In this document: piece by piece, positions 42,734 through 57,617 of the stretch | Layout of the letters: each line of letters begins with the position of its first letter | How positions within the stretch are numbered: the first letter of the stretch is position 1 | Assembly (NCBI GenBank): GCA_022651385.1 | Contig: JALCQR010000004.1 | Coordinates: 124,001-188,000 of the forward strand | Source: Clostridia bacterium | GTDB taxonomy: Bacteria; Bacillota; Clostridia; Lachnospirales; Anaerotignaceae | DNA length: 64,000 nucleotides | Direction: 5' to 3' | Notes under the pieces: generated by a model | Database searches by the model: none | What the model saw: the letters and a program-made list of their open reading frames with translations, nothing else | What the model was told of the DNA's origin: nothing | Program-made: the position numbers and the translations under genes

Positions 42734-42751
42734 ATTGAAATGGTGTGGGCT

Positions 42752-44809
42752 ATGAAACGTTTTTTTAGGAATTCGATTTCCTTATTTGTAATTTTAATTA
42801 TATTGCTGTTGATAATACCTTTAAGCCCTTTTTTGCTTGATATTTTATTTGTATTTAATATATCTATTTCGCTTATAATTTTGCTTATAACCATGAATAT
42901 AAAAGAGCCGCTGGAGTTCTCAATTTTTCCTTCCCTGCTGCTTATTACAACGCTTTTCAGGCTTGGATTAAATGTATCATCAACAAGACTTATTCTTACA
43001 AGGCAAGGTTCAGCGGGACAAGTTATAAAGGCTTTCGGAAGTTTTGTACTTCAGGGAAACGTTATTGTAGGAACTATTATATTCTTAATTATAGTTCTTG
43101 TACAGTTTATAGTAATAACAAAAGGAGCTGAACGTGTGGCTGAAGTTGCTGCCCGTTTTACCCTTGATGCTATGCCGGGAAAGCAGATGGCTATAGACGC
43201 CGACTTGAATTCCGGCCTTATAAATGAACAGGAAGCCAGAGTAAGAAGATATAAAATACAAAAAGAAGCCGACTTTTACGGAGCTATGGATGGTGCCACC
43301 AAAATTGTCAAAGGCGATGCCGTTATGTCATTGATTATTACTACTATAAACTTTGTGGCAGGTGTTATAATAGGTTCTGTTCAGTCCGGCATGAGTTTTT
43401 CAGAGGTTTTGCAGGTATACTCTATTGCTACAATTGGTGACGGACTTGTATCACAGATACCAGCGCTTCTTATATCAACTGCAACAGGCATGATAGTTAC
43501 CCGTTCGGTTTCAGAGGGAAGCTTAAATACTGATGTGGCAAGACAGTTCTTAGCTCAGCCTCAGGCTATTCTTATGGGCGGCAGCATTGTAGCAGCTCTT
43601 ATTGTTGTTCCGGGTACTCCTAAAATTCCGCTTATTGTAGTATCGGCATTGCTTCTTTCACTCGGCGGAAATGTAAAGAAAAACATGAAAGAAAGCGTTG
43701 CAAAAAAACAGGTTAAGACTGAAGCTAAAGCTGCTGAAAAGCCGGCAAGCGAAGAAGATTATTACAAAGACGTAAACAATATTTACTCACTTATAAACGT
43801 TGAGCCTATAGAAATGGAGTTTGGCTACAGCCTTATACCGTTGGTTGATGAATCAAGCGGAGGCAAGCTTATAAACAGAATTGTAATTTTCAGAAGAAAA
43901 TATGCTCAGGATATGGGATTTGTAATTCCATCTATACGAATACGTGACAGTGCTTCGCTAAACCCTAACCAATATGTGATAAAGATTAAGGGTGAGGTTG
44001 TGGCAACAGGCGAAATTCTTGTGGATTATTATCTTGCCCTTGAGCCTTCAGAGCCTTCCGGTGATATAGACGGAATAGAAACTATTGAGCCGGCCTACGG
44101 AATACCAAGTAAATGGATACTTCCTGAAAATAAAGAGCTTGCCGAGTTATATGGTTATACCGTAATAGATCCACTTTCGGTTATGGTTACGCATCTGTCG
44201 GAAACGGTTTCGTCCCATGCTTATGAACTTCTATCAAGAACAGAAATTATGCACCTTATTGACAACGTTAAGAAAAGCTCACCGGAAATTGTTGAGGAAG
44301 CATTCCCTAATATCATATCGTACAGCAATTTCCAGAAGATTATATCAAATCTTTTAAAAGAAGGCGTTCCTATAAAGGATATGGTTACCATTATAGAAAC
44401 AATTGTGGACTCATCCTCCGCTGGAAAGGATATTGATACTATAACGGAAAATATAAGAGTTGCCCTTAAGAGAACTATTACAAGAAAGTTCTGTGAGGAC
44501 GGACAGATGAAAGTTATAACATTGGATGCTGAGCTTGAGAAGGTTATTATATCAAGCATGTCTAAAAGCGAACAGGGCGTTTATCTTTCGTTAAGTCCTG
44601 ATGTTCTGCAAAAGATTTTGAATCAGCTTTCGGATAACATTAAAAAGTTCAATGATATTTCGCACAGGCCTATTATTTTAACAAGTCACGTGATAAGAGT
44701 TTATTTTTATAGATTAATTGAGCAGTTTTATCCGAATGTAAGCGTTATTTCTTTTAATGAAATAGCAAATAACGTACAGATTCAATCTATAGGCAATATA
44801 AAAATTTAA
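42752..44809 (+). CDS. flhA: Flagellar export apparatus protein FlhA
   Basis: FlhA forms the nonameric export ring and docks chaperone-substrate complexes. The 685-residue protein has about eight membrane helices. The FHIPEP-type segment includes DLNSGLINEQEARVRRYKIQ and EADFYGAMDGATKIVKGDAV. The cytoplasmic ring domain follows. The ATG at 42752 is chosen because the membrane region starts MKRFFRNSISLFV; an upstream ATG at 42740 adds four residues and has no ribosome site either. flhF and flhG, which normally come next, are absent. Confidence 0.94.
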   Translation: MKRFFRNSISLFVILIILLLIIPLSPFLLDILFVFNISISLIILLITMNIKEPLEFSIFPSLLLITTLFRLGLNVSSTRLILTRQGSAGQVIKAFGSFVLQGNVIVGTIIFLIIVLVQFIVITKGAERVAEVAARFTLDAMPGKQMAIDADLNSGLINEQEARVRRYKIQKEADFYGAMDGATKIVKGDAVMSLIITTINFVAGVIIGSVQSGMSFSEVLQVYSIATIGDGLVSQIPALLISTATGMIVTRSVSEGSLNTDVARQFLAQPQAILMGGSIVAALIVVPGTPKIPLIVVSALLLSLGGNVKKNMKESVAKKQVKTEAKAAEKPASEEDYYKDVNNIYSLINVEPIEMEFGYSLIPLVDESSGGKLINRIVIFRRKYAQDMGFVIPSIRIRDSASLNPNQYVIKIKGEVVATGEILVDYYLALEPSEPSGDIDGIETIEPAYGIPSKWILPENKELAELYGYTVIDPLSVMVTHLSETVSSHAYELLSRTEIMHLIDNVKKSSPEIVEEAFPNIISYSNFQKIISNLLKEGVPIKDMVTIIETIVDSSSAGKDIDTITENIRVALKRTITRKFCEDGQMKVITLDAELEKVIISSMSKSEQGVYLSLSPDVLQKILNQLSDNIKKFNDISHRPIILTSHVIRVYFYRLIEQFYPNVSVISFNEIANNVQIQSIGNIKI

Positions 44810-49450: not shown

Positions 49451-50683
49451 ATGAATAAGTATGTTGTACGTCAACCGATTAAGGATAAGAATAATAACAT
49501 TGTTGCTTATGAAATAATGTATGAAGTCGACAAAATGGATATCTTTAATCAAGTTGAGGATTTTCAGGCTGCGGATACAATATCCGACTTTTTTATGCAA
49601 AATACATCTATGATTTCTGGAAACAATATTGTATTTATAACATTTACTCCAAACCTGCTATTTAAAAATATGCCGAAAGTTTTTGAAAGTGATAAATTAG
49701 TTATACAAATAGAGGACAATGTTGTAATTCACCCATTATCAAACAATTTGATAACAAAATACAGAAAAGAAGGCTATAAAGTAGCAGCAAATAATTTTCA
49801 GTTTAACCCAAAGTATTTTGCTATAATAGACTCTATAGATTACATAAAAATAGACTTTAAAAATATTGAACATAGTTCAATAGATAATCTTGTAAGCATG
49901 GCTAAAGGCTTTAATAAAAAATGTGTTGCGACTGGTGTTGACTCAAAGGAAATATATGACTACGCTCTTTCAAAAAATGTGGATTATTTCCAAGGAGTTT
50001 ATGTTTCGGAAATTGCAAAAACGCATATGCGAAAAACTGAATTTATACAAGGAAACTTTTTCAGGCTTGTTGTCGAAGTTACAAAAGCCGAGCCTGATTT
50101 AGAACAGATTGAGCAGATTATATCGAGAGATGCAAGCTTGTCCTACATGATTTTAAAAGTTGTAAACTCGCCGTATTTTGCCTTAAAAAACAGAGCCACA
50201 ACAATAAAGCAGGCTCTTACGCTTTTAGGTTTAGTACAGCTTAAAAGGTGGGTTTATCTTTTGAGCTTTAAAAACGGTGACAGCAAGGAAGCCGAAGAAG
50301 TACTTAAAATATCGTTCTTAAGAGCTAATTTTTGCGCCGAGCTTGTGAAATACATAAAAGATTTCCCTATTAACTTAAATGAGGCCTACACTATGGGTAT
50401 GTTCTCAACTCTGGATGTACTTATAGATGCACCTTTAAGTGAACTGCTTGACGAAATATATGTGTCCGACGAGGTAAAAGGAGCACTTTTAAATCATGAG
50501 GGCAAATGCGGAATGCTTTATGATCTTGTTTTGAGCTATGAAAAAGCCGATTGGAATAATTTAAAGTCTTATGCAGATGAGCTTGGCATACCGAGAAATG
50601 TCATAGCTCAGGTATATTTTGACTGTGTTGAAGAAGTTAACAACATATGGAACAATGCTTTTAAAGTTTTGAAAGATAAATAA
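49451..50683 (+). CDS. EAL-HDOD protein with degenerate EAL domain
   Basis: The 410-residue protein resembles B. subtilis YuxH and similar EAL-HDOD signalling proteins. The N-terminal EAL-like domain (about 1-200) has YEIMYE where the EAL motif belongs and ATGVDS where a catalytic Glu is expected (usually AEGVE). It is therefore probably not an active cyclic-di-GMP phosphodiesterase. The HDOD domain follows (IISRDASLSYMILKVVNSPY, with TTIKQALTLLGLVQLKRWVY). HDOD domains are regulatory and lack the HD metal site. Association with chemotaxis genes suggests a motility regulator, by inference. AAAGGTGG lies 12 bases upstream of the ATG. Confidence 0.85.
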   Translation: MNKYVVRQPIKDKNNNIVAYEIMYEVDKMDIFNQVEDFQAADTISDFFMQNTSMISGNNIVFITFTPNLLFKNMPKVFESDKLVIQIEDNVVIHPLSNNLITKYRKEGYKVAANNFQFNPKYFAIIDSIDYIKIDFKNIEHSSIDNLVSMAKGFNKKCVATGVDSKEIYDYALSKNVDYFQGVYVSEIAKTHMRKTEFIQGNFFRLVVEVTKAEPDLEQIEQIISRDASLSYMILKVVNSPYFALKNRATTIKQALTLLGLVQLKRWVYLLSFKNGDSKEAEEVLKISFLRANFCAELVKYIKDFPINLNEAYTMGMFSTLDVLIDAPLSELLDEIYVSDEVKGALLNHEGKCGMLYDLVLSYEKADWNNLKSYADELGIPRNVIAQVYFDCVEEVNNIWNNAFKVLKDK

Positions 50684-50725: not shown

Positions 50726-51733
50726 TTAATGATGAGGATTGTTTTTTACTACGCTACAGGCCCGTGATAACTGTGCTGTTACAGCACCTTTATACTGGCT
50801 GCTGAAAAAATTTAATAACGGTGAAACGTATGAACTGTCTACAACGATATATTTTGCCGGAAGTCCGTTTAAGGCCAGAGCCATTACGTCTACTTTGCAT
50901 CTTGGACACGTGCATACATCGAATAGTTTAAGAAACTCGTCAATTCTGCTTTTTACTATTTCCTCAAACACATTTACATATTGATATTCAATGCCGTTAT
51001 TGTTTGATTCTTGAGAGCTGATTTCAGCCGAGGTTTCAGGAGCTTTTTTTGTATCGTTTTCAGCTGAGGTCTCAGGAGCCTTTTTTGTGTCGTTTTCGGC
51101 TGTATTGGAACTTTCCGCTGCATTTTCAACTTTTTTTGTATCATCTTCAGCTTGTTTTTCATCCATATTTTCAGCTACATGTTTAAGAACGTTTTCAAAA
51201 GAACTTTTTGAAGCACTTTCAGAATCTGTTACAGAACTTTCTGTATTGCTTTCAGTTTGACTTTTTAAAATTTCAGCAGTGTCTTTAACTGTATCATTGC
51301 TTTCAGCTGAGTTATAATCAGTATTTTCGTTTTCATCAGTATTTTCGGAGCTTTCAGATATTGTTTCATTTTGAGCTACATCATTATCTGAAACAGCATC
51401 GGATAAAGACTCTGCATCCACAGTATCCAACTCATCGGCATTAAACTCTATGCCAGTATCATTTTGATTGGTCAGAATGTCCGATAGTGTGTCTTGTTTT
51501 GTACTATTTAGGCTTGCATTTATATCTCCATCATCAGCTATTTCGGAAAGCCTTTCCTTTACTTTCTCGGAAACTTTGTTATCTTTTGCTATGTCTACGT
51601 CTATAAAAGATAAATCATTTGTTATATCACTTTCGTTTGGCTCGATTTCTAAATCGTCATCTAATTTATGCTCCTCCTTGGATTTTGATATTAGCTTAAG
51701 AACATGGGCTGTTTTGTTTGTTTTTCGTGACAT
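50726..51733 (-). CDS. ComFB-domain protein with long acidic N-terminal region
   Basis: The 335-residue protein has two parts. Residues 1-240 are very acidic and rich in Ser, Thr and Asn, probably disordered, with a tandem repeat of NDTKKAPETSAE. The C-terminal 95 residues are a ComFB-like domain: NVFEEIVKSRIDEFLKLFDV, then CTCPRCKVDVMALALNGLPAKYIV, with three Cys of a likely metal site. ComFB was named in the competence operon. From memory, some members bind cyclic dinucleotides, which would fit a motility locus. It lies 80 bases downstream of a parA-like gene on the same strand, with AGAGGT before its ATG. Confidence 0.75.
   Translation of the reverse strand: MSRKTNKTAHVLKLISKSKEEHKLDDDLEIEPNESDITNDLSFIDVDIAKDNKVSEKVKERLSEIADDGDINASLNSTKQDTLSDILTNQNDTGIEFNADELDTVDAESLSDAVSDNDVAQNETISESSENTDENENTDYNSAESNDTVKDTAEILKSQTESNTESSVTDSESASKSSFENVLKHVAENMDEKQAEDDTKKVENAAESSNTAENDTKKAPETSAENDTKKAPETSAEISSQESNNNGIEYQYVNVFEEIVKSRIDEFLKLFDVCTCPRCKVDVMALALNGLPAKYIVVDSSYVSPLLNFFSSQYKGAVTAQLSRACSVVKNNPHH
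51024..51095 (-). repeat. 36-bp tandem repeat in the acidic region of the ComFB-domain gene
   Basis: Two adjacent units at 51024-51059 and 51060-51095 differ at about four positions and keep the frame, encoding the repeated NDTKKAPETSAE peptide. Confidence 0.8.
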
Positions 51734-51813
51734 TATATTACCTCTTTTTACGTTTCTTGTTGAATTTTATGTAAAATATCTTTTAATTATACTTTCAAAT
51801 AAAAATAATATGA

Positions 51814-52593
51814 TTACGTATTGCTTTTTTTAGCCCTACAGCGAACAAGTACATCCTCTATAAAATTTATATAATCGGCAGTTGGTTTTGAGCTTGGTGC
51901 GTGAAGCAAAACCGATTCTCCATGTGCCGGTGACTCGGCAACTACAACACTTGCTCTTATTTTAGACGGAAAAACAGAGGTATCAAGCTGTTTTGCTATT
52001 TCGTTTGCAAGTTCTTCAACTTCTTTTGTTAGTTTTGTTCTGCGGTTATATTTTGTAAGCAAAATTCCCATTACGTCGAGATTTGTGTTATAAAACTTTT
52101 TGACTGTTTGTACGGTTTCTTTAAGCTGGCTTACACCCAAAAGACTTAGTATTTCAGGAACCATCGGTATAATAAGAAAATTAGAGCAAACATATGCGTT
52201 TACTGTCAGTATGTTAAGTGACGGCGGAGTATCTATTATTATAAAATCATAGTCGTTTTTAATGACATCAAGGTTTTCTTTTAATAGAAACTCACGGCCT
52301 GAACGGTTAAATTCTAATTCCGCTCCGCTTAACAAAATATTAGACGGTATAATATCTCCAAACTCGGTTTTGTGTATGGCATCTTTTATTGAGGCTTTGC
52401 CTTTTAAAACATCGTATATTGTTACAACATTTTCAACATCAAGGCCCATAGAAAATCCAAGATTGCCCTGAGGATCCATATCTATACCAAGAACTCTATA
52501 GTTTTGCAGTGAAAGTCCTGTCAGCAGAGCACATGTTGAAGTGGTTTTTCCTACACCTCCCTTTTGGTTTGTAAATGTAATTACTAAAGACAC
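51814..52593 (-). CDS. ParA/Soj-family ATPase
   Basis: The 259-residue protein is a deviant-Walker ATPase: TNQKGGVGKTTSTCALLTGL, then DMDPQGNLGF and IIIDTPPSLNILTVNA. It belongs to the Soj/ParA group rather than to FlhG or MinD, because it lacks their C-terminal amphipathic helix and has the Soj-type NQKGGVGKTT start. The GTG whose first base is 52593 is preferred, with GGGGTG eight bases upstream; an earlier GTG overlaps that site. No ParB or parS is adjacent. The next gene on this strand is the ComFB-domain gene. A role in positioning cell-surface or signalling machinery is possible. Confidence 0.88.
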   Translation of the reverse strand: MSLVITFTNQKGGVGKTTSTCALLTGLSLQNYRVLGIDMDPQGNLGFSMGLDVENVVTIYDVLKGKASIKDAIHKTEFGDIIPSNILLSGAELEFNRSGREFLLKENLDVIKNDYDFIIIDTPPSLNILTVNAYVCSNFLIIPMVPEILSLLGVSQLKETVQTVKKFYNTNLDVMGILLTKYNRRTKLTKEVEELANEIAKQLDTSVFPSKIRASVVVAESPAHGESVLLHAPSSKPTADYINFIEDVLVRCRAKKSNT

Positions 52594-52736
52594 AAGTATC
52601 ACACCCCATATATAAATTATTTGATTTTGCTATTAATAAAAGTATACTATAGGTCGAAAAATAAGTATATAGGGTATTATTGAAAACTGATTATTTTTAT
52701 ATGCAATACTTTAAATTTTAACAAAGGAGGGCTATT

Positions 52737-55202
52737 ATGGATATAAGCAGTTTATCTTCTGCTTCAAGCAGTAGCACAAGCAGTATTTTTGGGAGCACGA
52801 GTAAAGGTATAGGCGGTCTTGCCAGTGGCCTTGATACCGATTCACTTATTGATGCCATGACTTCAAATATACGCTCAAAAATAGCTAAGCAAAAGCAAAG
52901 CAAACAAATACTTGAGTGGAAAATGGATGCCTATCGCTCTGTAAGTACAAAATTGATTGATTTTGAGAATAATTATACCTCTTATGCATCCAGCACTAAC
53001 TTATACAGTGAAAATTTCTTTTCCCGTAATGTAATAACGGCTTCTGGTGACAACAGCAAATATGTCACTGTTTCGGGTACAGCTTCAAGCTCAACAGTTC
53101 TTGCCTTAAGCGGTGTTACTCAGCTTGCAAAAGACGCAAGTTTTACAACAAGCGATCCGCTTTCGGATAACTATATACAAACAGGTGCAATTTCTTATGG
53201 AGATATGGAAGAAAGCACTATAACAGGCGAAAAGCTGAAAATACAGCATGGCGACCAAACTTACTACGTTGCTATACCTGAAAAAGATGGTGGCGGAGTA
53301 TACACCAGTGTTTCAGAAGTCGCAGACGCAATTAATTCTGCTCTTAGTAAAACTGATCTTACAGGAGACGTAAGTGACAAGCTTAGTAGTGTTCTTACTG
53401 TTAGTGCCGACGGAGACAAGCTTAAATTTACTAATATGGATATGTCTGGAAATGACGTAAAGATAACAGGAGGGGATACAAATCTCCTTACAACGCTTGG
53501 ATTAAAAACTGACACTGATACGATTGTTGGCAAAAGCATAACCGGTTCTTTAGACGGCGTAGCAGATATTAATACGGATGATTTATCGAAAACTACTACT
53601 TTTGCTGAGAGGCTTAGCGGAAAGGCAGTAATGTTTACTTATAACGGCACTTCAAAAACAATTAAATTTGATGATACGGACAGACTTACAGAGTCTGATT
53701 TTAAAAACTATCTTCAAGACGAGCTTAACAGCAGTTTTGGAAATGGAAGAATAACTGTAACAGACAGTAACGGGGGCTTGAAATTAGAGACCACAACGCC
53801 GGATGGTGCGGCGGATACAACTTCTGTTTTAAAGATGTCAAGCAGCTCGACTGGACTGTTTGGAAGCTACGGTGTTTTCGGAATAGAATCAGGAACTTCC
53901 AACAAGGTGAATCTTGATGTGGCCCTTGAGTCATCTGGATTAAAGGGTGCGGATAATGTGTCCCTTACTGACGGAGAAAATGTTATAAGAATAAACGGCA
54001 AGGATGTAAAATTTACTTACGAAGCAGGCAAGACTACAATGGCCGACATAATGGAAGCAATTAATAACTCAGATGCAGATGTCAAGATTTCTTATATGGA
54101 AAACAGCGATAAATTCTCGGTTGCTTCTACTCAACAGGGAGCATCTGGAGACGTAACTTTTGGAGACGAATCCACAGGCGAACTTAATGACTTAGAAAAA
54201 TTGCTTTTTGGGAAAAAAGACGAAAACGGCGATATATTGTCATCAAGCAATGAGTTAAACGGAACAAAGGTTAACGGACAAGATGCCAAAATAATGGTTG
54301 ATTTCGACGGAGAAGGCGGAGCTGACCCTGTAGAAGTTACAAGGTCAAGCAACAGTTTTACTCTTGACGGATTAAACATATCTGTAAGCGGCTGTTTTGG
54401 ATATGACAGCGACGGTAACAAAATTGACGGCTCGGACGTAACATTTGACGCTTCGGTAGACGCTGACTCAATAGTAAGCGCTGTAAAAAGTATGATAGAT
54501 GATTACAATGAAATTGTAGCAGGCACCAATACGGCGGTTAACGAAAAAAGAAATTATGATTATGCGCCTCTTACCGATGAACAAGAAAAGGGTATGAGTG
54601 ATAGCGAAATAACGGCATGGAATAAAAAGGCCCAAGCCGGCATGCTTTTTGGGAACAGCGATATGGTAGACCTGACAAATGACCTTAGATATGCATTTCT
54701 TGACACAAGAACAGACGGACTGACTTTTTCAGACATTGGAATAAGTGTTTCTTCTGATTATTCTGATAACGGTAAAATTACTCTTGATGAGTCGAAGCTA
54801 AGGTCAGTGCTTGAGTCAAATCCGGAAGATGTTCAGAAATTGTTTACATCTTCTTCAAATGACAGCAATTACACAAGCTCGTCAGGTTCAACGTCAAGCC
54901 TTACCACAGGCGGAGCTATGACACGTTTAAGGTCAGTAATGGAAAAATATGCTTCAACTACAGGCGCTACTAAAGGAATACTTGTTGAGGAAGCAGGCAA
55001 TGCGGCATCAGCTACGTCAATGCTTTCTAACAACCTTCAAAAGCAGGTTGATGATATAGACGACAATGTATCAGACCTTAACGATAAGCTTACATCGGAT
55101 CAGGCAAGGTATCAGTCAAAATTTACCGAGCTTGAGCAAGTTGTACAAAAAATGAATACGCAGAGCAGTTATCTTAGCAACATGTTTAGTAGCGGCTCTT
55201 AA
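52737..55202 (+). CDS. fliD: Flagellar filament cap protein FliD
   Basis: FliD caps the filament and guides flagellin folding. The 821-residue protein starts with a Ser-rich tail, then IGGLASGLDTDSLIDAMTSN, the FliD N-domain. It ends in a long helix with QKQVDDIDDNVSDLNDKLTS and RYQSKFTELEQVVQKMNTQS. It is longer than the usual 450-500 residues because of extra beta-rich insertions in the middle (about 150-530). Such insertions form the outward-facing part and vary between strains. AAAGGAGG precedes the ATG. No clear promoter was found in the 143-base gap to parA. Confidence 0.93.
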   Translation: MDISSLSSASSSSTSSIFGSTSKGIGGLASGLDTDSLIDAMTSNIRSKIAKQKQSKQILEWKMDAYRSVSTKLIDFENNYTSYASSTNLYSENFFSRNVITASGDNSKYVTVSGTASSSTVLALSGVTQLAKDASFTTSDPLSDNYIQTGAISYGDMEESTITGEKLKIQHGDQTYYVAIPEKDGGGVYTSVSEVADAINSALSKTDLTGDVSDKLSSVLTVSADGDKLKFTNMDMSGNDVKITGGDTNLLTTLGLKTDTDTIVGKSITGSLDGVADINTDDLSKTTTFAERLSGKAVMFTYNGTSKTIKFDDTDRLTESDFKNYLQDELNSSFGNGRITVTDSNGGLKLETTTPDGAADTTSVLKMSSSSTGLFGSYGVFGIESGTSNKVNLDVALESSGLKGADNVSLTDGENVIRINGKDVKFTYEAGKTTMADIMEAINNSDADVKISYMENSDKFSVASTQQGASGDVTFGDESTGELNDLEKLLFGKKDENGDILSSSNELNGTKVNGQDAKIMVDFDGEGGADPVEVTRSSNSFTLDGLNISVSGCFGYDSDGNKIDGSDVTFDASVDADSIVSAVKSMIDDYNEIVAGTNTAVNEKRNYDYAPLTDEQEKGMSDSEITAWNKKAQAGMLFGNSDMVDLTNDLRYAFLDTRTDGLTFSDIGISVSSDYSDNGKITLDESKLRSVLESNPEDVQKLFTSSSNDSNYTSSSGSTSSLTTGGAMTRLRSVMEKYASTTGATKGILVEEAGNAASATSMLSNNLQKQVDDIDDNVSDLNDKLTSDQARYQSKFTELEQVVQKMNTQSSYLSNMFSSGS

Positions 55203-56034: not shown

Positions 56035-56069
56035 AAAAGCGTAGAACAATATATTTGTTCTACGCTTTT
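56035..56069. terminator. Two-way terminator hairpin after fliT-like gene
   Basis: A 15-base perfect stem AAAAGCGTAGAACAA with its complement around a five-base loop. It overlaps the last codons of the minus-strand peptidase gene. T runs are short on both sides. Confidence 0.7.
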
Positions 56070-56890
56070 GGATTGCTTATAGACCAAAAAGGCCCGCCAT
56101 AATTGGCCGAATATTTTGCCTCTTTTAAAATAATATCTATGTCCCATGGCGTTTTGCTGTTTTCTATGCTTTTCGGGTCGGCTATAAGAACCTTTGAGTC
56201 TTTTGTTATACCTCTCAGTATTATAAAATGTCCGTCAGTTGTAAAGGTTCCCTTATTCATAAGAACTACAATAATATTGCCTTTTGAGACATTATCAATT
56301 ATATCCTGTTTTGATGGCTTTTCAAGGCTTTTGCAATCAAGACCATGCTTTTCTGCACCCTTTGGTATAATCGAGTGATAAGAGCCGTTATTATAGCTAA
56401 AATGACCGTTGTCGTACGCCCACTTTGCAGCATCAACAGGTGTTACTGTTTTGTCTGTAAGAGACGACAAAACCATTGCCAATACAGTAGGGCCGCATCC
56501 ATATACACCTATGGTATTGTCTGCTCCGTAAATTGCGTTTTTCCAGCGGTTGTCCGTTTGAGAATAATAAACAATTTGTGATGTGTCAGATTTAAGCACA
56601 ACATTATCCTCATTTTCGCTGTTATCTGTTTTATCAGGCGTTTCTTTTGCTTCGGCAACTTTTGCAATAGTTTTATCAGGCTTTTTAAGTGATGCAATCT
56701 CTGAATCAATTTTTTGCTTAACAACAACAGCAATCTTTTGTGAGCTCTCCTTTGTGTTTTTAACAAAGTAATCTATATCAGGAGGGGTTATGTTATTAGC
56801 AAAAAGATATAAAAACACAATAAAACTGATAAGCGTTACCATAAATATCATATTAAATATTTTTTTAAATACTTCTTTCATACTATCCAA
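56060..56890 (-). CDS. Membrane-anchored C39-type papain-fold peptidase
   Basis: The 276-residue protein has an N-terminal membrane anchor (residues 10-30, IFNMIFMVTLISFIVFLYLF), a Lys/Glu/Asp-rich stalk to about 105, and a peptidase_C39_2-like domain. The active-site set is visible: Gln111 (YSQTDNRW), Cys132 (YGCGPTVLAMV), His221 (DGHFIILRG) and Asp238 (IADPK). The catalytic part would lie outside the membrane. Substrates of this family include peptidoglycan-linked or secreted peptides; the true substrate is unknown. Its start overlaps the FtsE-like gene by 13 bases, so the two are probably one functional unit. Confidence 0.82.
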   Translation of the reverse strand: MDSMKEVFKKIFNMIFMVTLISFIVFLYLFANNITPPDIDYFVKNTKESSQKIAVVVKQKIDSEIASLKKPDKTIAKVAEAKETPDKTDNSENEDNVVLKSDTSQIVYYSQTDNRWKNAIYGADNTIGVYGCGPTVLAMVLSSLTDKTVTPVDAAKWAYDNGHFSYNNGSYHSIIPKGAEKHGLDCKSLEKPSKQDIIDNVSKGNIIVVLMNKGTFTTDGHFIILRGITKDSKVLIADPKSIENSKTPWDIDIILKEAKYSANYGGPFWSISNPKA

Positions 56891-57564
56891 CCATATTTTC
56901 CTTTTTTTACATCTCCAAGTACTTTACCGTTGTTTAATGTTATAACTCTTTTTTTCATAATGTCGACGAATTTTTTGGCATGTGTAGCAATTATTACTGT
57001 AATGCCAAGCCTGTTTATGTCGTTAAACAAACACATTATGTCCCATGCCGTTTCATAGTCAAGACTTGCCGTCGGCTCATCGGCTATAATTATTTTAGGA
57101 TTATTAACAACAGCGCGTGCTATAAGTATCCTCAACCTTTCACCTTCAGACATATTTGAAGGGTATTCATTGATTTTTTTGTTCATTCCCACAAGCCCGA
57201 GGGCACGCGGAATGGAATCTTTGATTTTTTTTGACGGCTGCTGAGCCGCAAGCATAGCCAGTTCTAAATTTTCATAAACAGTTTTCTGCTCCATAAGAGA
57301 TATGTTTTTGTCTATTATCCCCAAAAGACGCCTGTAGTATGGCAGCTCTTTTCTGCCAATTTTATTTAATGAAAGATTGTAGACAAAAATATCTCCGCTT
57401 GTTGGACTAAGCTCTTTTGTTAAAAGTTTAAGCAAAGTGCTTTTTCCGGAGCCGCTTTTTCCTACAATAAAAACAAACTCGCCGTCATTAACGTAAAATG
57501 AGGCGTTTTCAACCCCTATAGAGTTATTAACGTAAGTTTTGGATACATTTTTAAGCTCAATCAA
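56878..57564 (-). CDS. FtsE-like ABC ATPase without FtsX
   Basis: The 228-residue protein starts at TTG (last base 57564), with AGAGGT seven bases upstream; an earlier in-frame TTG lacks a ribosome site. It resembles FtsE (MIELKNVSKTYVNNSIGVEN). Walker A is GKSGSGKST at 35-43, and Walker B is PKIIIADEPTASLDYETAWD. The ABC signature is NMSEGERLRI, with Ser-Glu-Gly replacing the usual Ser-Gly-Gly. The H-loop is ATHAK. FtsX, its normal membrane partner, is not adjacent; the next gene is a membrane-anchored peptidase instead. In Firmicutes FtsEX activates a cell-wall hydrolase, so a related role is plausible but unproven. Confidence 0.78.
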   Translation of the reverse strand: MIELKNVSKTYVNNSIGVENASFYVNDGEFVFIVGKSGSGKSTLLKLLTKELSPTSGDIFVYNLSLNKIGRKELPYYRRLLGIIDKNISLMEQKTVYENLELAMLAAQQPSKKIKDSIPRALGLVGMNKKINEYPSNMSEGERLRILIARAVVNNPKIIIADEPTASLDYETAWDIMCLFNDINRLGITVIIATHAKKFVDIMKKRVITLNNGKVLGDVKKGKYGWIV

Positions 57565-57617
57565 TGTTAATACCTCTTTATAATAAGACAATGTTTTACA
57601 AATTTCCCCTACTTAAC

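Follow-up and report, generated by a model that had tools for sequence, protein, structure and literature searches.

A conserved ParA–ComFB gene pair as a candidate positioning module in one lineage of clostridial flagellar clusters

A gene for a Soj-type ParA ATPase, followed by a gene for a long protein that ends in a ComFB domain (ComFB-long), was found in the flagellar cluster of a Clostridia bacterium, and this gene pair is conserved across Clostridia. Judged from sequence comparison, the two proteins very probably act as partners, and a spatial role in the motility apparatus appears likely. It is also reasonably probable that the pair constitutes a ParA–adaptor positioning module that serves a single lineage of flagellar clusters in Clostridia.

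We analysed a window of 64,000 nucleotides, meaning the whole stretch of DNA under study, from a host genome of 2.61 Mb and 99.9% completeness. The pair and the region that separates it from fliD are located in the window as follows.

51814 to 52602, minus strand: parA, Soj-type ParA/MinD-family ATPase, given as the longest frame (Pfam AAA_31, E 3.4e-51).
50726 to 51733, minus strand: gene for the ComFB-long adaptor of 335 aa (PF10719 over the cut-off).
52603 to 52736, no strand assigned: stretch between the divergent genes parA and fliD, holding a conserved promoter element of sigma-D type that reads toward fliD (core in 63 of 78 regions).

The parA product is 262 aa long from the GTG at 52602 and 259 aa from the GTG at 52593; the latter, implied by the end coordinate of the initial annotation, is the better start, matching the family consensus MSxIITLTNQKGG. 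The comFB-long gene lies 80 nt downstream on the same strand and encodes the sole ComFB protein of the host genome. From the sequence of the window, the initial annotation had described a ParA without ParB that diverges, together with its partner, from fliD in a flagellar cluster lacking flhF and flhG. All of this was borne out. The fliD gene starts at 52737 on the plus strand, opposite to the pair, and no ParB gene lies beside the pair in the window. The flhA gene (42740–44809) is followed directly by fliA (44834), with no flhF or flhG between them, and a profile search of the host genome found no FlhF over the cut-off.

Within the intergenic region we found a conserved element of about 43 nt, kept across families, with the consensus ACTATTAttTAAAGTATACTATATGcCGATAAATAAGTAtAGA when read toward fliD. 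In 63 of the 78 regions compared, no fewer than 16 of the 19 positions of its core were matched, where the best of 1560 shuffles reached 15. It contains a GCCGATAA-type sigma-D −10 toward fliD, and it reads TATACT on the parA strand. In one genome (G264) parA and comFB are in line between flgG and fliD. Together, this arrangement and the promoter element suggest that the pair is linked to flagellar expression.

The ParA protein has all the residues expected of an active ATPase of its class. The deviant Walker A motif (KGGVGKT, with the signature lysine), Walker A' and the Walker B aspartate are all present, and K14, G15, G16, G18, K19 and T20, as well as D41, D43 and D124, are invariant in 28 orthologues (262-aa numbering). 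R216, likewise invariant in these orthologues, may contact DNA. A phmmer search of the PDB placed ParA/Soj proteins nearest (1e-33 to 1e-44), with MinD at 1e-19 or weaker, in agreement with the Soj-type assignment made initially. The protein is not the chromosomal Soj, as the host genome has a separate one on another contig with an adjoining ParB (GKGLDALF). Nor is it FlhG, given its nearest structures and the 21–38 bits that FlhG proteins score on the pair-ParA profile. The other ParA/MinD-type matches over the cut-off in the host genome were that Soj and two proteins that we named from sequence and neighbours, a MinD and a CpaE/TadZ-like protein of 417 aa. In the class-level search, 13 loci matched the pair-ParA profile at 239–270 bits. 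Of the five inspected, three (L196, L198 and L201) were Soj adjoining ParB, one match adjoined a Lys-rich protein (L191) and one a 116-aa protein (L203).

The partner is far more variable, with a mean column identity of 23% against 67% for ParA in the 28-sequence alignments. Four parts can be distinguished in it.

51674 to 51733, minus strand: N-terminal basic peptide, residues 1–20, MSRKTNKTAHVLKLISKSKE, proposed to bind ParA and activate its ATPase, on the grounds of its invariance and its absence in ParA-less family genomes.
50987 to 51673, minus strand: acidic linker, residues 21–249, predicted to be disordered from its charge and a pLDDT mostly below 50; the helix of the next line lies inside it.
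51533 to 51583, minus strand: second conserved predicted helix, residues 51–67, a candidate cargo-binding motif from the model and its conservation.
50729 to 50986, minus strand: ComFB domain, residues 250–335, with CTCPRC and invariant dimer-interface residues (pLDDT above 90 in most blocks; Foldseek).

The peptide carries a charge of +6/−1 and follows the consensus MxKK[ST][SN]KT[AS]HV[LM]xL[IL], in which M1, K7, T8, H10, V11 and L14 are invariant among the 28 sequences. The initial annotation had noted an acidic, repeat-bearing region ahead of a C-terminal ComFB domain, and both were recovered. Residues 21–249 hold 18 K/R against 63 D/E, and a short repeat, NDTKKAPETSAE, occurs there in two near copies. 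The linker was net acidic in 108 of 108 rows (the 28 aligned sequences plus 80 named loci described below, some genes being counted twice), with a length, roughly measured, of 93–465 aa and a median of 186. In an AlphaFold model built with the 28 sequences, the partner was confidently modelled only from about residue 250 onward; the part before this was mostly disordered, with short helices at 8–16 and 51–67. The second helix had pLDDT blocks of 72 and 64, and its I58 and L62 are at least 90% conserved among the 28 sequences.

The only Pfam domain found in the partner was PF10719 at residues 253–333 (E 2.1e-17; score 63.4 bits, cut-off 25), so that it has no ParB domains. Foldseek matched the ComFB part to 4wai, B. 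subtilis ComFB, at E 3.0e-5 and to 8hja, the Synechocystis CdgR bound to c-di-GMP, at E 2.5e-3. Ten positions of the domain are invariant among the 28 sequences: N254, C274, C276, C279, D282, L288, K294, Y295, P333 and H335. ComFB proteins are described as dimers, with N4, E7, D33 and Y46 at the interface of the B. subtilis protein (PMC4381287). Reading the alignment by eye, we found their counterparts in N254, D282 and Y295, all invariant, and in E257, at least 90% conserved (28 sequences). With regard to a four-Cys zinc site, three cysteines (C274, C276 and C279) are invariant; no counterpart of C88 was seen in the alignment, and H335 is a candidate fourth zinc ligand.

The conservation of the pair was examined at several taxonomic levels. 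In the window's family, ComFB was present in 26 of 58 genomes, exactly those 26 that have FlhA. ParA lay directly upstream in 22 of the 26; three (G029, G031 and G032) had no ParA within the fetched 16–20 kb around ComFB, and in one (G038) the contig end cuts the locus. Across the order, 106 of 294 genomes had ComFB, mostly small ComFBs outside the family. Neighbourhoods outside the family were checked in 40 regions, which covered every ComFB frame of at least 180 aa and part of the short ones. Eleven genomes had such a long frame, seven with an adjacent ParA and the motif KT[AS]HV and four with neither.

A search of genome_contigs (all species) for KT[AE]HV[LM][NGK]L[IL] gave 229 matches, of which 162 encode relatives of the partner. 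Among the best 80 of these 162, which we call the named loci, the peptide was accompanied by ParA as the next gene upstream in 80 of 80, at a distance of −60 to +400 nt in 78 and with overlapping longest frames in the other two. Because these loci were picked by the peptide, they test whether the peptide implies ParA and not the reverse. Their titles include Anaerotignum, Lacrimispora, Clostridium, Dorea, Mediterraneibacter, Pseudoflavonifractor, Pygmaiobacter and Acutalibacter, and the adaptor ranges from about 200 to 580 aa across them. A chance neighbourhood of the two genes is ruled out by their adjacency in all 80. With this, and with the 22 of 26 family genomes, the pair is conserved across Clostridia, so that the want of conservation which the initial annotation named as a refutation was not found.

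The flagellar neighbourhood is also steady. A divergent fliD lay beside parA in 77 of the 80 named loci and was not found in the remaining three. On the other side of the pair, most family loci carry cheV, cheD and cheC, and ParA/MinD ATPases that serve chemotaxis arrays are described (PMC10241942). The module could thus position chemoreceptor arrays and not flagella, in the manner of PpfA–TlpT and ParC–ParP, its place in the cluster being due to cheC, cheD and cheV. We consider this unlikely, as adjacency to fliD is steadier than adjacency to che genes: several loci (L144, L153, L160 and L175 among them) have no che genes beside the pair in the fetched stretch and yet keep fliD. The partner, moreover, has no CheW-like or array-integration domain in Pfam.

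Some other features of these loci were recorded. In the window, an EAL-HDOD protein is encoded at 49451–50683, whose EAL match covers profile positions 117–235 of 236 only, so that the N-terminal EAL half appears to be missing; an EAL-HDOD gene flanks the pair in many named loci. At window positions 56060–57591 lie genes for an ABC ATPase of 237 aa and for a secreted protein of 276 aa that resembles a peptidase (C39-like by eye); in most pair loci both are conserved close to fliD-fliS-fliC. In two family genomes a further ComFB of 88 aa stands alone at 3–6 kb from the pair (L039:8088-8351 and L061:12291-12554). Long ComFBs with an N-terminus that looks receiver-like by eye, and with no ParA nearby, occur at L067:6898-7557 and L072:7625-8320, and L077 has two ComFB domains within one frame.

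The N-terminal peptide was found to follow ParA and not the ComFB domain. The motif KT[AES]HV[LM] is present in all 22 family pairs and in seven of seven others. The ComFB proteins of the three ParA-less family genomes keep the ComFB domain, as well as a stretch similar to helix 51–67 (VSEIIKEKL-like), and the motif is absent; their starts are MSAQNND, MSAQKNN and MSTKKNN, the third being preceded by a further in-frame stretch. In their genus, two other genomes have both ParA and the motif. As the three genomes are close relatives, this co-loss counts as a single event. The converse case is G523, where a pair ParA is followed by a partner that starts with MARSTKTKHVMDLV and has no recognisable ComFB. 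When compared with the ComFB-long profile, only residues 1–16 of this partner aligned (E 0.001, probability 22%), and our impression by eye that it might be a degenerate ComFB was thus unsupported. These two observations, a single loss in one direction and a single genome in the other, indicate that the peptide goes together with ParA, whereas the ComFB domain goes with another element. ParA/MinD partners are described as generally interacting through a positively charged, disordered N-terminus (PMC10241942). The peptide is therefore likely to be a ParA-binding motif, and by its sequence the partner appears to have the architecture of a ParA adaptor. Against the positioning module proposed below counts the setting of the G523 pair ParA, which has no flagellar genes within 30 kb except for a weak FliA-like match. 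The pair-type ParA (367 bits) whose peptide-bearing partner lacks a recognisable ComFB, away from flagellar genes, is recorded at L206:7914-9317.

Three genomes retain ComFB in the absence of ParA, which shows that the domain also does something by itself. Cyanobacterial ComFB homologues are described as cyclic-dinucleotide receptors (PMC12313861, PMC13075795); the Synechocystis protein Slr1970 binds both c-di-AMP and c-di-GMP, and a KD of 2.6 uM for c-di-AMP, with c-di-GMP also bound, is given for cyanobacterial ComFB (PMC12313861). This agrees with the statement in the initial annotation that ComFB proteins are reported to bind cyclic dinucleotides. A regulatory switch in place of a positioning system can be built on these facts, in which ComFB senses c-di-AMP or c-di-GMP, ParA is a partner or a sequestration platform, and flagellar output or expression is tuned. 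The cyanobacterial receptors, the element shared by the divergent promoters and the persistence of ComFB without ParA would all suit such a switch. It is nevertheless improbable, as ParA is a canonical Soj-type ATPase whose catalytic residues are all invariant, and an N-terminal peptide of this kind usually indicates that the ATPase cycles together with a partner.

FlhF and FlhG are described as a conserved switch for the number and place of flagella, and the question of regulated versus random flagellation without them is raised for enterobacteria (PMC12826062). No FlhF was found in the 58 family genomes (E 1e-35; top candidates scored). In the order, with the seven best first-look candidates per genome scored for FlhF, FlhA was present in 187 of 294 genomes and FlhF in 157. 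Of the 30 FlhA-positive genomes without FlhF, 21 are from the family; seven belong to another family and carry the pair; the last two, G085 and G168, also lack ComFB, and their FlhA match is split in the former and partial in the latter. None of the 26 pair genomes (19 + 7) in the order has FlhF, and among those examined, no peptide-bearing ComFB was found in the 157 FlhF genomes. Right after FlhF, a ParA-like frame (FlhG) was seen in 27 of 29 loci scanned, and an unscored frame in the other two. In the class, FlhA exceeded the cut-off in 122 of 303 genomes and FlhF in 111; these counts leave out the FlhA match of G540 (19 bits, below the cut-off) and include G368, which has FlhF without FlhA. 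Twelve flagellates had no FlhF, five with pair ParA (378–469 bits) and seven without. In these seven (L208–L214), flhA is followed directly by fliA. Flanks of about 20 kb were searched for a hidden pair in six of the FlhF-less, pair-less genomes, the search leaving out G315, which is on a 4-kb contig, and neither a peptide protein nor a pair ParA was found in them.

An FlhA tree (80 rows, quick search, LG+G4) placed these distributions in context. A branch with support 98 separated all 32 FlhF rows from every pair row; the 38 pair rows and two ComFB-only rows grouped together with support 100. Between them are G523 and the rows with neither FlhF nor the pair, the latter as outgroups or neighbours, and one family (f5) has members on each side. 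The tree thus indicates that the pair marks one lineage of flagellar clusters, which moved between families and with which the pair stayed. For this reason the exclusion of 26 to 157 between pair and FlhF, including its Fisher values, is not independent evidence, and the idea that the pair replaced FlhF many times independently had to be toned down. The cluster probably lacked FlhF before it acquired the pair, so that a functional replacement is possible. The single lineage, with the seven FlhF-less flagellates that have no pair ParA, makes the replacement of FlhF–FlhG a weaker idea than the raw counts would suggest.

Movement of the cluster between families as a block would also suit a passive leftover, in which the flagellar cluster, being mobile, simply carries along a ParA of plasmid type and a ComFB gene unrelated to it. 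Conservation largely refutes this, and we regard it as very improbable indeed. ParA retains 72 invariant positions among 28 sequences at 48–77% identity to the window protein, the peptide hardly changes while the length of the linker ranges between 93 and 465 aa, and the two genes stay adjacent in each of the best 80 of 162 loci.

We favour a ParA–adaptor positioning module. The initial annotation had suggested a module of this kind with a nucleotide-sensing cargo adaptor, a proposal that the comparisons support in part. Its starting points, read from the sequences, are the pair, its synteny, the intact ATPase motifs, the peptide with its co-loss with ParA, and the ComFB fold. By analogy with other Soj-type ParAs, the ATP-bound ParA dimer would load on the nucleoid. 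The partner peptide would dock on this dimer and stimulate ATP hydrolysis, as the N-terminal peptide of ParB does, and hydrolysis would release the nucleoid-bound ParA. The long acidic linker may serve as a flexible tether, and the ComFB domain would dimerise the partner, presenting two peptides together. Cargo may be held by helix 51–67 or by the ComFB domain, and would most likely be a component of the flagellar basal body or of the chemosensory apparatus. The domain could also bind a cyclic dinucleotide, with a change in cargo binding or in the tether. By analogy with known ComFB receptors, we put forward such nucleotide gating only tentatively. More speculative still is the proposal that the adaptor is a second-messenger receptor, in which a cyclic dinucleotide on ComFB switches the coupling of nucleoid-riding ParA to flagellar or chemosensory cargo.

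The docking step was compared with that of M. xanthus ParA, in which Y81, E82, D110 and E117 are described as a pocket that takes the central arginine of the ParB peptide (PMC12462528). Aligned through 8ray_B, taken as that M. xanthus ParA from its residue numbering, the pocket maps to Y63, D64, L91 and E97 of the pair ParA (262-aa numbering). Among the 28 orthologues, E97 never varies and the conservation of Y63 is at least 90%; L91, one of the four positions, is non-acidic, which counts against a ParB-like docking model.

Several known systems share parts of this design. With ParABS (Soj–Spo0J) the pair has in common the Soj-type fold and ATPase residues, a short basic N-terminal partner peptide ending in a hydrophobic L-I pair, and a dimeric partner, as would be expected here from ComFB. 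The pair differs in being flagellar, in coexisting with a separate Soj–ParB in the genome, and in its partner, which ends in ComFB in place of ParB domains; its peptide is NKTAHVLNLI and not GLGKGLxALI (ParB starts GKGLDALI or GKGLGALL in L196, L198 and L201). FlhG (FleN, YlxH, MinD2) with FlhF likewise involves a ParA/MinD-superfamily ATPase in a flagellar cluster, and spatial or numerical control is likely to be common to both. FlhG, however, stands after FlhF and next to flhA, and scores low on the pair-ParA profile in relatives, whereas the pair ParA is Soj-type and stands next to fliD in a genome without FlhF. ParC–ParP of Vibrio and PpfA–TlpT of Rhodobacter both combine a ParA-like ATPase with a dedicated adaptor in a motility locus (PMC10241942), but the adaptor of the pair is a ComFB protein in which Pfam finds no chemoreceptor or CheW-like part. 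With the ComFB/CdgR receptors the adaptor shares the domain and fold (4wai, 8hja), the CxCxxC motif and the dimer residues (PMC4381287). Those receptors are small and stand-alone, whereas here ComFB ends an adaptor of some 200–580 aa linked to ParA, and the window ComFB scores 33 bits against the 120-bit cut-off of the NCBIfam equivalog for B. subtilis ComFB. Judged by titles, in a search whose scope excluded most subscription papers and all preprints, no published account of a ParA–ComFB pair was found. ParA positioning with a dedicated adaptor is already known; as far as we have seen, the ComFB adaptor and the flagellar setting are new.

These results indicate that a clostridial lineage without FlhF, comprising Anaerotignum, Lacrimispora, other Lachnospiraceae and Oscillospiraceae, has a different ParA-family module in its flagellar cluster. 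With cultured species and short motifs at hand, the module is directly testable. In the adaptor of this module, a probable ParA-activating peptide is combined with a domain of the cyclic-dinucleotide-receptor type, which would link second messengers directly to spatial organisation. If the receptor proposal is true, the state of the cell would set the site or number of flagella in Clostridia that have neither FlhF nor FlhG.
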